From positions 1 through 62,086 of the forward strand of contig REDV01000089.1 in the NCBI GenBank assembly GCA_007695365.1: 62,086 nt of DNA, read 5' to 3'. This DNA comes from Cryomorphaceae bacterium (GTDB taxonomy: Bacteria; Bacteroidota; Bacteroidia; Flavobacteriales_D; SKUL01). Under the pieces are notes generated by a model that made no database searches, had not been told where the DNA came from, and saw only the letters and a list, made by a program, of their open reading frames with translations. Made by a program: the position numbers and the translations under genes. Positions 6,005 through 51,634 of this stretch are shown here, in pieces. The stretch's first letter is position 1; each line of letters starts with the position of its first letter.

Positions 6005-7750
6005 CTACGGTTTCACTTCGCGCCGCATGGCCTTCTTCTCGGCCGGAGTGGGTTCGCGTTGCCAATCTTCGTTATACGGCAACCAATGTGAAGATTGTGA
6101 CGCTTCTTCCAACGATATTTTGCCATCCATATAGTTGGCAATGAGTTTTCCGGCAGGATGCTTTGCGTCCTGAAGAAGCAACAGGGCAGCGTTGGCCGCA
6201 GCCCGCACAGCGATGGGTACACCGCCACCCAGTTCAGCCCAATGCCCTCCCAGAATGAGGTTCTTCACGGGCGTCCGGTAATGCGCAATTCCCGCTTTGT
6301 AATTCTCCTTGCCGGGTCGTGCGCCCATCATGCTGCCATCGCGGTTTTGGGTATAGCGCCAATGGGTGATGGGCGTAGCGATGTCGCAGTATTCAATGTG
6401 GCTTCTCAGGCCTGGGGCCAGCCGCTTTTCAATCCGCTCAAGGAGAATATCTGCGTATTCCTGTTTGTGCAACTTGTAGGCCTCACCGCGAATAAACTCG
6501 CCGTTGTTGGATCGCTCGGTGTGCCAGTAATCGTCTTGTTGAAAGTACGCAGGTACATACACCGTCAAGGTGCCTTTGCCGGCCGGTGCCAAAGAGGGGT
6601 CTCTCAATGAAGGCGCCAAAAGACTGATATCACTGGTATGCGGATTTCCATTTGCATGTTCATCCCGCGAAATACCAGTCTCTGCCAGATACACCATTTC
6701 TTCACCAAAACCGAGTTCTTCTACAGGGCAGTCAAGAGCAATAGATAGCGTAACGGACGAACTGTAAAGCCTGGCCTGGTTCAGTTTGTGCTTCATTTTT
6801 TCGGGCACTACTTCTTTGGGCAACATCTTCTCGTACAGCGCCTGAACATCACATGCAGCCAATACATAGTCGCTTTTCACCTCATACATCTTTCCTCGGT
6901 GCTCAAAACTACAGCCTGTTGCCATATTGTTTTTCAGAGAAATGCGCCGTACCTGCGCTTTAAACTGAACATCGTTGCCAAAAGAATCCATCACATGACA
7001 CAGCCATTCCGGAAGTACCTGGCTCCCACCTTCGGGAGGTAGTTGGTAGTCTGCGTGGTAAGCCCAGCCAATGGGCACCAGGCAGCTCAGAATATCCATT
7101 TCCGAACAAAACAAATCTAGCAAATCAGGATCGCTGAAATACCGCTTGAGTCCCTTGACTACGCCCTCAGGTCCGTTGAAACGAATGTGGGGAATAAAGG
7201 GCAGCGCAAATTTGAGTTTTTTAAGCATAAACAAGCCGTACTCCAGACCACGCATACTCTCGTCTGTGCGCGAGGTATATCCGAGCATCGCAAACGAACT
7301 ACCCAACTTGTATGCGTGATGGAAAAAGCGCTCAATCCCTTTGCGCTCATGTGGAAAGTCGCGGATGAGTTCCGTTTTCATCTCATCCGGATGGTCTGTG
7401 AGCAGATAATTATGCTTGTCGGTAATGTATCGCTTGATGAGGCGTTGTTGTTTGGCCCTGGGGTGATCTTTTCCTATCAGATCAAAAACGCGGGTTACGA
7501 GCCCTTGAGGCCCCATCTGATTCAGCCAGTGAATCGCGCTGTCAAAGCGAAAATCCTTGCGCCTGAAACCGGCCAGATATCCTCCGGGACGAGCATCTGA
7601 CTCTAGCACCAACACCGACAATCCTGCCCGCGAAAGCATAGCAGCCGAGGTCAAACCACTCACACCTGCACCAATCACAATGGCGTCGTATTGTGAACGA
7701 AGTCCGAGCGCTTCGGGGCTTTGAGCGTTTGTGGTATTATTCTGGGTCAT
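6005..7750 (-). CDS. FAD-dependent oxidoreductase of the phytoene desaturase / retinol saturase family
   Basis: The 581-aa product begins with an N-terminal FAD-binding dinucleotide fold (AIVIGAGVSGLTSAAML … VLVLESDARPGGYLAGF) and ends with the matching FAD motif NLILGGHWAELGGGVPIAV. This is the architecture of CrtI/CrtISO/RetSat enzymes (COG1233), which saturate, desaturate or isomerise polyene chains. Which polyene is used cannot be told from the sequence, and no carotenoid genes are nearby. An in-frame Met at 7771 also exists, but a near-consensus -7 box (TACCTTTC, 7758-7765) lies inside that extension and seven bases before the ATG at 7750, which favours the shorter start. The gene is single and followed by an unrelated lipoprotein gene. 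Confidence 0.85.
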   Translation of the reverse strand: MTQNNTTNAQSPEALGLRSQYDAIVIGAGVSGLTSAAMLSRAGLSVLVLESDARPGGYLAGFRRKDFRFDSAIHWLNQMGPQGLVTRVFDLIGKDHPRAKQQRLIKRYITDKHNYLLTDHPDEMKTELIRDFPHERKGIERFFHHAYKLGSSFAMLGYTSRTDESMRGLEYGLFMLKKLKFALPFIPHIRFNGPEGVVKGLKRYFSDPDLLDLFCSEMDILSCLVPIGWAYHADYQLPPEGGSQVLPEWLCHVMDSFGNDVQFKAQVRRISLKNNMATGCSFEHRGKMYEVKSDYVLAACDVQALYEKMLPKEVVPEKMKHKLNQARLYSSSVTLSIALDCPVEELGFGEEMVYLAETGISRDEHANGNPHTSDISLLAPSLRDPSLAPAGKGTLTVYVPAYFQQDDYWHTERSNNGEFIRGEAYKLHKQEYADILLERIEKRLAPGLRSHIEYCDIATPITHWRYTQNRDGSMMGARPGKENYKAGIAHYRTPVKNLILGGHWAELGGGVPIAVRAAANAALLLLQDAKHPAGKLIANYMDGKISLEEASQSSHWLPYNEDWQREPTPAEKKAMRREVKP

Positions 7751-48440: not shown

Positions 48441-48473
48441 TTTGTTTTTATACCGGTTTCATGGCTATTTTTG
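48441..48473 (+). promoter_or_regulatory. Promoter of the tandem beta-propeller genes
   Basis: TTTG (48441-48444), 21 bp, and TATTTTTG (48466-48473) give a full -33/-7 pair. The ATG at 48491 is 17 nt after the -7 box. The earlier ATG 48461 lies inside this promoter and would be excluded. A second -7-like TAGATTTG at 48437-48444 overlaps the -33 element. Confidence 0.6.
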
Positions 48474-48490: not shown

Positions 48491-50053
48491 ATGTCAGGAA
48501 AGCTCAGTTATTCATTTGTTTTGCTCTTGTGTTCAGCCTATGCGCTCGTTTCATTCGCTCAACCTTCCGCTACGCCGATGAAGACAGGAGATATTGCTGA
48601 ATCAGAGCTGTCTGTAAAATGGAATAAGTGTGATTTTGAAGGCATGGTGTCTGCTGCGTACTGGAATCCCAAACATCAGTTACTTCTTGTTGAAACGATT
48701 GATGAAATGACTAAAAAGGGTAACCCCATATCCGGCAGTTTGTGGGGGCAGAGGGTCACCGATGGTAAAAAATTATGGAGGGTTGAGTTCGAGCAGTCTG
48801 TTGATTCTTATCAGATTTATGATGACCACCTTCTCATAGAAGGAGAGAAGCTCACCGAATGGTGTGATATTCTTACCAGTGAGCCACTTTGGTTGAGCAA
48901 AACAAGGTTGCTTCATGTTGATCCGTCGAAGAACTATGCGGTGGGATTCAACAAAATCGCAGCCGGAAAAACCGGACAAAGAGCTTCCGCGTTGTCCCTT
49001 GATGACGGAAAACCCATTTGGAAAACTGGGGTTCCGTATGGCGAAGAATACCATGAAGTGCAGATTTATGGAGACAGCGTGATGTTCGTTTTGGCGCCGA
49101 ACGGATTGCACAGGGTTGGCTTTACGGAAGGAGATACCTGGCATTACAAACTTAAAACAAGCAAGGGTGATGGCGTGGCTGTTGGCGTAGCGGTGGGAAT
49201 GGGATTTGCCTTTGGCCTTCTCGGTGCCGCGTTCATATCTGCTACAGACTTCATGGTTAAAGGAAATTTGCAATCGAATATGGTAGTGAAAGGCGGCTTT
49301 ATTTATGTTGCAGATAAAAAGCACATTGTAAAACTGGGCCCAACCGGTGAGGCTGTTTGGAAACAGGACTTACCCAAGGAAATGGCCAGCCAGTCTATTG
49401 TCAACCTTCACAAAGGTGTGGTAACGGTTGTGAACACGAGCCTGGCATACGATAATTATGGCAACCCGAAAAGGTCAGGAACTCCCATGATTGCCGCTTT
49501 TGATGAGTATGATGGGGCGCAACGTTTTCTCAAACCTGTTGAATGCGGAGATGAAGCTATTCTCGATGTATTGATGGAAGGAAACACTTGTCGATTACTT
49601 ACCGGAACCGCTGTCATCCGCTATAATATGTCAAACGGATTATGGGCATACGAACGAAAGTTACCGGTAGAATATGTAAACAGACAAGCTTCTTTCGCTA
49701 GTGATGACCTGTTTGATTTTTCCGATAATCGTTTTTTTCCGGTGAACAGTCACCCCAGATTTTCGCACATGGTAAGATTAGATGATGGTCAGTTCCTGAT
49801 GCTGGACGAGGATGATGAACTGATTGATCGTGTGTCAGAGAATCAAAGCTGTACGAAATTAGACAGCTTCAATAATTATCATCTCCTTGCTGGTGGAGAG
49901 GTCATCTACCTTGCGGATGGCGATCTTCAGTTGATTACCACACTGCCCAAAGGCTTCAATGCGTTTTTTACTGAACATGGCTTTATGGTTGTCGCAGAGG
50001 ATGGAGTGTACGATATCCGGTGGGAGGAAAACCCATCACTTTTGGCTAATTAA
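48491..50053 (+). CDS. Exported PQQ-like beta-propeller protein with central glycine zipper, copy 1
   Basis: From ATG 48491 this protein is 520 aa, exactly the length of its downstream paralogue. It has a signal peptide (YSFVLLLCSAYALVSFAQ), WD/PQQ-type beta-propeller strands (DGKKLWRVEFEQ, DDGKPIWKTGVP, EAVWKQDLPKE) and, in the middle (228-248), a hydrophobic segment with Gly at 228, 232, 236, 238, 242 and 245, a glycine-zipper-like membrane or packing helix. It ends in VYDIRWEENPSLLAN. The in-frame ATG at 48461 is rejected because of the promoter and the signal peptide. I recognise no named family with this arrangement. It is one of a tandem pair, separated by 18 bp, and likely co-transcribed. 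Confidence 0.85.
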   Translation: MSGKLSYSFVLLLCSAYALVSFAQPSATPMKTGDIAESELSVKWNKCDFEGMVSAAYWNPKHQLLLVETIDEMTKKGNPISGSLWGQRVTDGKKLWRVEFEQSVDSYQIYDDHLLIEGEKLTEWCDILTSEPLWLSKTRLLHVDPSKNYAVGFNKIAAGKTGQRASALSLDDGKPIWKTGVPYGEEYHEVQIYGDSVMFVLAPNGLHRVGFTEGDTWHYKLKTSKGDGVAVGVAVGMGFAFGLLGAAFISATDFMVKGNLQSNMVVKGGFIYVADKKHIVKLGPTGEAVWKQDLPKEMASQSIVNLHKGVVTVVNTSLAYDNYGNPKRSGTPMIAAFDEYDGAQRFLKPVECGDEAILDVLMEGNTCRLLTGTAVIRYNMSNGLWAYERKLPVEYVNRQASFASDDLFDFSDNRFFPVNSHPRFSHMVRLDDGQFLMLDEDDELIDRVSENQSCTKLDSFNNYHLLAGGEVIYLADGDLQLITTLPKGFNAFFTEHGFMVVAEDGVYDIRWEENPSLLAN

Positions 50054-50071
50054 CATCAATACCATTGCACT

Positions 50072-51634
50072 ATGCTAAAAAAGCTCATCTTTTTTCTCGT
50101 GCTCAATGCGATTGCAATAAACCAATTCGTGGTGAAAGCTCAGCCCATAGGTGAACCGGTTGAAGCCGGATATGTGGTAGAAACAGTTGAGCCCATTCAC
50201 GGCTTGAAATACGATTTCCCGGGAAATCTCGTGGAAGTGTTGTCAGTGCCTGAAAAACAAATGATTCTCGTAAAGTCAATAGAGGCCTATAACAAATGGA
50301 GCGAGCCTCAAGGTTGCAGTTTGACTGCATACCGCGTTTCAGACGGGAACAGGCTTTGGGGGCTGAACATTCAAGACCATCACACATCATTGCAGGTTGA
50401 GGGAGGTTTTCTTGTTGTGGAGGGTTCAAAGTTTTGTGGGTGGCATGATCTTGAAACGGGTAAAGAATTGTGGTCCACCAAAACACGATTCATCCATTTC
50501 GATAGGGAAAACAACGTAGGGGTGGGGTTTCACAAATTAGCCGACGGTAATTTAGGCCAAAAAACAAGAGCTGTTGATTTAAATGACGGCTCAGAAATCT
50601 GGAGAGCACCGGTGTTTTTCGGTCAGGAGTTTGAAGACCTGCATATTTACGGAGATAGCGTAATGGTGTTTAGGTCCATGCATGCCTTGCATCGCGTTCG
50701 TTTTGAGGATGGTGATACCTGGGATTACAAGCTGAAAACAAAAAAGGCTGATGGTGCTGCAATCGGAGCATCCATCGGCGCCGGAATACTCTTTGGACTT
50801 TTGGGAGTGATGGTTGTGCCTGACCCGGACGGATATACCAAGCAGAGATTACAGTCTAACATGGTGGTGAACAATGAGTTTATTTACGCAGCCGATAAAA
50901 AACACATTGCCAAAATTGGCCCGGACGGCAGGCAGGTCTGGACGCAATCACTTCCAAAAGAAATGGGAAGCCAATCATTGCTCTCGGTCTATCAGGGATT
51001 GGTGTCGTTGGTGAACACCGGTTTGGGCTATGATTCGTATGGCCACCCCATGAGAACGGGCGTTCCAACCATCGCAGCCTTTGATGAGTACGACGGAGCT
51101 CCCAGATTTTTAAAACCTATTGAGTGCGGAGGAGAACATATTCTGGATCTCCACATCAGTGGCAAAGAGGCCAGAATGCTCACGCGAAACAGTGTTATTC
51201 GCTACAACCTATCCAATGGCATTTGGGCTTACACCCGCATGTTTGCTGGCGCCGAAGGTAATCAGGATGCGTTTTTTGTTTACGAGGAGTTGTACGACTT
51301 TTCCAATGAGCAGTTCTTTCCTGTGAGTCAGCATCCAAGGTTTTCACATGTCATTGGCGTTGATAGCGGAGATATTTTAATCATGGATGATGAAGACGAA
51401 CTGATTGATCGAATTCCGCTGGAACAGGCGTATCGACTGATGGATTCATACAATGGTATGCACATCTTTACAGATGGTAATGCACATTACCTGGCTGACA
51501 ATAAGCTAACAATGATTGCTGAATTACCCAATGGCAATGCTGCGTTTTTTACCGACCAAGGCATCATGGTTGTGGCTCTTGAGGGGGTTTATGATATCCG
51601 GTGGGAGGATAACCCATCATTGCTCGTAAACTGA
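50072..51634 (+). CDS. Exported PQQ-like beta-propeller protein with central glycine zipper, copy 2
   Basis: This 520-aa protein is a divergent tandem paralogue of the preceding one, colinear over the whole length. The zipper Gly residues are at the same positions (228, 232, 236, 238, 242, 245), flanked by GDTWDYKLKT before and LQSNMVV after, as in copy 1. Blocks YGDSVM, ADKKHI, KIGPDG and the ending VYDIRWEDNPSLLVN are shared. It has a signal peptide (LIFFLVLNAIAINQFVVKAQ). Nothing in it suggests an enzyme. The pair may act as subunits of one hetero-oligomer or be two specificities of one type; function is unknown. Confidence 0.85.
   Translation: MLKKLIFFLVLNAIAINQFVVKAQPIGEPVEAGYVVETVEPIHGLKYDFPGNLVEVLSVPEKQMILVKSIEAYNKWSEPQGCSLTAYRVSDGNRLWGLNIQDHHTSLQVEGGFLVVEGSKFCGWHDLETGKELWSTKTRFIHFDRENNVGVGFHKLADGNLGQKTRAVDLNDGSEIWRAPVFFGQEFEDLHIYGDSVMVFRSMHALHRVRFEDGDTWDYKLKTKKADGAAIGASIGAGILFGLLGVMVVPDPDGYTKQRLQSNMVVNNEFIYAADKKHIAKIGPDGRQVWTQSLPKEMGSQSLLSVYQGLVSLVNTGLGYDSYGHPMRTGVPTIAAFDEYDGAPRFLKPIECGGEHILDLHISGKEARMLTRNSVIRYNLSNGIWAYTRMFAGAEGNQDAFFVYEELYDFSNEQFFPVSQHPRFSHVIGVDSGDILIMDDEDELIDRIPLEQAYRLMDSYNGMHIFTDGNAHYLADNKLTMIAELPNGNAAFFTDQGIMVVALEGVYDIRWEDNPSLLVN

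Follow-up and report, generated by a model that had tools for sequence, protein, structure and literature searches.

A hydrophobic insert with a partly conserved glycine pattern in an unnamed family of exported PQQ_2 propellers from Bacteroidota

Two adjacent genes, here called A and B, in a 62,086-nucleotide stretch of DNA from a Cryomorphaceae bacterium (the window) raise the question of what a hydrophobic segment with zipper-like glycine spacing does in the middle of an exported β-propeller. A first-pass annotation had described the products as tandem paralogues with a perfectly conserved zipper and had proposed that they form a heteromeric ring or pore. Our analysis shows that A and B belong to an unnamed Bacteroidota family of exported, soluble PQQ_2 propellers. 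The feature is real, its fold is ordinary and its insert is unusual and partly conserved; from these properties we infer a possible function.

The tandem gene pair and its surroundings

Both open reading frames were confirmed as tandem genes for paralogues of 520 residues (Table 1). The start of A was placed at the ATG at 48491; translation from an upstream ATG in the same frame, at 48461, would lengthen the protein by 10 residues. Global alignment of A with B required zero gaps across the 520 residues, with 248 identical positions (47.7%, ~48%). The gapless alignment had been reported for the first 248 residues, which understated its extent: the whole proteins align, and 248 is the number of identities. 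Both N-termini are hydrophobic and end in FA/QP or KA/QP, and the predicted Sec signal peptides agree with the export proposed earlier. A lipobox scan of A, B and the other family members with an intact N-terminus found none.

SCO1/SenC and LiaF-like genes lie 5' of the pair, and NlpE-like and CAP-domain genes lie 3' on the opposite strand; no toxin, exporter, secretion or immunity gene was found among these neighbours. When neighbouring genes were compared over 19 loci, nothing was common beyond close relatives, so gene context suggests no guilt-by-association function for the propeller family. Two local arrangements were observed among the relatives. In two Bacteroidales MAGs, a small zinc-ribbon-like protein (CHNCG...CPKCG; L033:4624-4986 and L035:4624-4986) is encoded 11 bp 5' of the propeller gene, as if co-transcribed. 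L005 and L037, the two relatives whose insert is short and not hydrophobic, share an upstream neighbour, a gene for an exported protein that ends in a sorting-like domain (L005:295-1248 and L037:3919-4857, 58% identical).

Table 1. Positions in the window of genes A and B and of their predicted features
Feature	Position	Strand	Description and basis
Gene A	48491..50053	+	520-aa exported PQQ_2 (BamB-like) beta-propeller protein; ORF, Pfam, AlphaFold2
Gene B	50072..51634	+	520 aa, paralogue of A, 18 bp downstream of A
A signal peptide (predicted Sec), residues 1-23	48491..48559	+	Sequence, hydrophobicity; lipobox scan negative
B signal peptide (predicted Sec), residues 1-23	50072..50140	+	Sequence, hydrophobicity; lipobox scan negative
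A best PQQ_2 stretch, residues 90-189	48758..49057	+	Pfam
B best PQQ_2 stretch, residues 84-224	50321..50743	+	Pfam
A insert between two blades, residues 223-262	49157..49276	+	AlphaFold2 and 22-protein alignment; low-confidence helix 230-241 plus coil
B insert, residues 223-262	50738..50857	+	Alignment to A; 37/40 residues kept in genus-mate
A glycine-zipper core, residues 228-245	49172..49225	+	Sequence, A/B alignment, family alignment
B glycine-zipper core, residues 228-245	50753..50806	+	Sequence, A/B alignment, family alignment

Fold and predicted structure

Pfam analysis supported the PQQ-like assignment of both proteins, with matches to PQQ_2 (PF13360) above the gathering cut-off of 27.6 bits (A, 42.5 bits, E 7.8e-11; B, 34.5 bits, E 2.2e-8), and all 13 of the 13 family members scanned also matched this model (E up to 0.1). 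A sequence search of the PDB gave weak matches, the best of which was the designed propeller Scone-R (E 8.8e-5), and the spacing of sequence motifs suggests that the propeller likely has about ten blades.

An AlphaFold2 model of A, built from a 13-row alignment of window proteins and related loci (mean pLDDT 79, pTM 0.68), is all-beta with a propeller-like strand order. Residues 226-257 have pLDDT values below 50, and a helix at 230-241 lies between strands 216-220 and 264-267. The model of a distant homologue, L030 (pLDDT 81, pTM 0.73), features a helix at 227-243 with pLDDT values of about 50-60. Both models therefore place the zipper, at low confidence, in a helix outside the propeller and between blades, rather than in the buried propeller strand that would have counted against the earlier description.

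Structural comparison with Foldseek and VIA-align ranked BamB first for both models, at rmsd values of 7-10 and TM scores of 0.3-0.36. The alignment with residues 93-451 of the A model (Z 16.4, 276 residues, rmsd 6.8), like that with the L030 model (Z 14.8), covers both sides of the insert. The two halves of the protein thus appear to form one propeller in one compartment, which argues against a single membrane crossing between them.

The same genome (G000, contig C97) encodes a third PQQ_2 propeller (L044:1351-3294), a protein of 647 aa with a signal peptide. It carries two inserts rich in Ala and Gly, near residues 205-245 and 510-585, that are probably helical, more polar and sited elsewhere. 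BLASTP detected no kinship between this protein and A beyond the superfamily. Ala/Gly-rich inserts in PQQ_2 propellers are therefore not unique to the A/B family.

The hydrophobic insert in A and B

Glycines at positions 228, 232, 236, 238, 242 and 245 are all present in both A and B, within a hydrophobic stretch as originally described. The most hydrophobic 19-mer of each protein is residues 231-249 (Kyte-Doolittle 2.12 in A and 2.26 in B), which exceeds even the signal peptides (1.85 and 1.94, respectively), and the N-terminal flank of the insert is Lys-rich (KLKTSK, KLKTKK). A crude insertion-energy estimate was around zero or positive for this stretch, so its entry into a membrane would be marginal.

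The description of the zipper as perfectly conserved holds between A and B, but the statistics within this pair are weak. Following shuffling of residues 226-248, at least as many GxxxG pairs were obtained with P 0.16 for A and 0.06 for B, which makes the spacing mildly non-random, and glycine identity between A and B was not significantly different inside the stretch (6/7) and outside it (25/38; Fisher P 0.41). Glycine periodicity was accordingly rejected as stand-alone evidence (shuffle P 0.06-0.16), and relatives were needed to judge the pattern. The Pfam glycine-zipper models did not usefully match the insert, the only hit being DUF883_C, with E 9.8 and 6.4 bits against a cut-off of 27.

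Relatives and their distribution

Twenty relatives of A and B with an insert at the same site were collected from Flavobacteriales, Cytophagales and Bacteroidales. At the thresholds used, whole-genome searches of 399 sampled genomes from the same order and 395 from the phylum turned up relatives in 7 and 3 genomes, respectively; one of the latter three is only a weak PQQ match. Relatives were present in five of the eight genomes of one family of the order, that containing Cryomorpha ignava, and in 5/125 genomes of the family of Parabacteroides. Protein A as a single query gave no match in the named genomes, while a pattern search of these genomes retrieved Cryomorpha ignava, Telluribacter (Cytophagales), Bacteroidales MAGs and two Parabacteroides. 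This pattern was derived from a second alignment, as a first, mixed alignment was too diverse for patterns.

Two of the retrieved genes have unusual reading frames. The Cryomorpha ignava homologue (L029:5001-6703) has a stop at residue 440 and its C-terminal part is apparently in another frame (6338-6703), which appears to be a frameshift or an assembly error. At L036:3116-5521, a single ORF joins a CoA-ligase-like N-terminus to a propeller without a signal peptide, and is probably the product of a chimeric MAG contig.

Relatives usually occur as single or scattered copies. Co-occurrence of the pair across Bacteroidota, which had been put forward for checking, was not seen: the tandem arrangement was found in no other genome searched and is known from this genome only. 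A genus-mate (G001) encodes an orthologue of B that is 82% identical and lies at the edge of its contig, which begins 5 bases before B; no copy of A was found in this genome, which is 81% complete. In a tree of the 22 proteins, A and B group together and A branches outside B plus the B of the genus-mate (support 100/99). On this topology, the duplication appears to predate the split of the two species.

Conservation of the insert across the family

The insert recurs in the 22-protein alignment of A, B and the 20 relatives, where its length within the counted region ranges between 33 and 61 residues. Gly242 is present in 21 of the 22 proteins and Gly238 in 19, ranking 11th and 18th, respectively, in conservation among the 520 columns, while a small residue (Gly or Ala) occupies position 236 in 21/22. 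Gly232 was found in five proteins and Gly245 in eight, whereas Gly228, and with it the complete six-glycine zipper, is confined to the genus of the window. The expectation that the glycines would be conserved in homologues is thus borne out for 238 and 242, which are nearly always kept, and fails for 228, 232 and 245, so a rule of six conserved glycines was rejected for the family.

Hydrophobicity is usually retained: in 20/22 members, the hydrophobic maximum of the mature protein falls within the insert. In the UBA4893 protein (L034; insert SAASIALAILIDSY), both Gly238 and Gly242 are replaced and the Kyte-Doolittle value is still 2.04, whereas the L005 and L006 inserts keep the glycines with values of only 0.76 and 0.41. 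At the level of sequence, hydrophobicity and glycine are therefore separable in the insert. Between B and its genus-mate orthologue, 37 of 40 insert residues are identical and dN/dS is 0.064 in the insert versus 0.122 overall, the former value being approximate given the short insert; by this measure, B and its insert are under purifying selection.

Interpretation

Tentatively, and with a probability of roughly 0.45, we favour the reading that A and B are exported BamB-like propellers whose inserted helix contacts the envelope membrane or a membrane-protein partner, with the propeller as a scaffold. The core of the 40-residue excursion between two blades would be a hydrophobic helix centred on GxxxG (Gly238 and Gly242), and this helix would dip into, or lie on, one leaflet of whichever envelope membrane is involved, or would dock onto a partner protein in the membrane. 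In this way the periplasmic propeller would be kept in place without a lipid anchor, and may serve as a binding scaffold. This reading is consistent with the PQQ_2 matches (13/13), the top structural rank of BamB, a helical insert in two separate models, the retained hydrophobicity (20/22), the conservation of Gly242 and Gly238, the lack of a lipobox, the low dN/dS of the insert and the precedent of the PROPPINs (see below). Against it stand the pLDDT values of the helix (<50 in A, about 50-60 in L030), the marginal insertion energy, the reduced hydrophobicity of L005 and L006, and the failure of our searches to find a conserved neighbour or partner.

The helix could instead be exposed to water and pack propeller against propeller, or propeller against partner, through its small-residue face with no membrane involved. 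Within the insert, conservation is highest at the small residues 236, 238 and 242, as close helix-helix contact needs, and two relatives keep the glycines without strong hydrophobicity. However, in 20 of 22 members no other part of the mature protein is as hydrophobic, and exposing such a stretch would be costly; L034 is hydrophobic despite lacking Gly238 and Gly242. This explanation is less likely.

A reading that is less likely still takes the insert for an ordinary loop, disordered in part or packed on itself, that lends the propeller stability, for example by covering its underside, and the glycines for flexible-linker residues. The low pLDDT, the variable length (33-61 residues in the part counted) and a GxxxG spacing that is only mildly non-random within one protein would all fit such a loop, but both Gly238 and Gly242 fall within the top 20 family columns by conservation, the dN/dS of the insert is half that of the remaining sequence, and a plain linker would not retain hydrophobicity in 20/22 members.

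The heteromeric A:B ring or pore, in which the zippers would act as a membrane-spanning bundle, was not supported and is very improbable. Its attractions are the adjacency of the paralogues, their identical zipper positions and a precedent from Caulobacter, in whose two-component Cdz bacteriocins glycine zippers act (PMC5380434). However, the pair is known from this genome only, relatives have single or scattered copies, the modelled helix spans just 12-17 residues at low confidence, Gly228 and Gly232 are not family features, and no secretion or immunity gene lies beside the pair. Finally, a single transmembrane helix that splits the protein into earlier, periplasmic and later, cytoplasmic blades is hardly credible: one hydrophobic stretch of ~20 residues does follow the signal peptide, but the single propeller of BamB aligns on both sides of the insert, L005 and L006 have no stretch hydrophobic enough to span a membrane, and the Lys-rich N-terminal flank contradicts the positive-inside rule for an exported N-terminal half.

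Comparison with known systems

Like A and B, the Cdz bacteriocins are two proteins with GxxxGxxxG in a hydrophobic stretch, but they are 84-86 aa long and are associated with a type I exporter and an adjacent immunity gene (PMC5380434), whereas A and B are 520-aa proteins with Sec signals and neither such neighbour. An assignment as Cdz bacteriocins was therefore rejected, the pair being flanked by SCO1/SenC, LiaF-like, NlpE-like and CAP genes.

Two eukaryotic systems offer analogies of mechanism only. In EMC1, the propeller sits outside the bilayer, tied to an amphipathic brace helix that is itself packed on membrane helices (PMC7785296), and one member of our family matched the Pfam EMC1 N-terminal propeller (E 1.2e-4). 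The likeness is to the helix-tethered propeller proposed for A and B; EMC1 differs as a large subunit with two propellers in an eight-subunit eukaryotic complex. The closest functional precedent is the 6CD loop of PROPPINs, which is hydrophobic and unstructured, is predicted by AlphaFold to be helical at low confidence and turns into a helix on liposomes (PMC11387628). PROPPINs (WIPIs) resemble A and B as propellers from which a single long loop extends that is hydrophobic, partly helical and modelled with low confidence. They differ as cytosolic, seven-bladed PI3P binders with an F/LRRG motif, neither FRRG nor LRRG being found in the A and B sequences, and their loop lies within blade 6, whereas the A/B insert lies between blades.

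The usual view of BamB-like propellers is that of soluble scaffolds with a lipid anchor. A conserved hydrophobic GxxxG helix between blades, in a Bacteroidota-wide family with no lipid anchor, would be another way of placing a propeller at a membrane. A and B share with BamB (YfgL, the BAM accessory lipoprotein) their PQQ_2 repeats, export and best structural match, but they have no lipobox, are longer (520 versus about 390 aa) and carry the hydrophobic insert. BamB, a closed eight-bladed propeller, is the best match, but with rmsd 7-9 over about 276 residues and a TM score of about 0.35. Scores against the BamB equivalog model TIGR03300 were 25.4 (A) and 27.3 bits (B), compared with a cut-off of 285.2; with no lipobox either, A and B fall outside BamB as it is defined and were rejected as members. 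We regard as improbable a more specific proposal, that in some Bacteroidota these proteins take the place of BamB without a lipid anchor, the inserted GxxxG helix keeping the periplasmic propeller at the outer membrane or BAM, and that A and B, the duplicated copies, may pack via their zippers. Whether any Bacteroidota have BamB has been stated to be unclear (PMC12578637), and the family, which has members in the culturable genus Parabacteroides, bears on that question as a reason to test a BAM link rather than as evidence for one.
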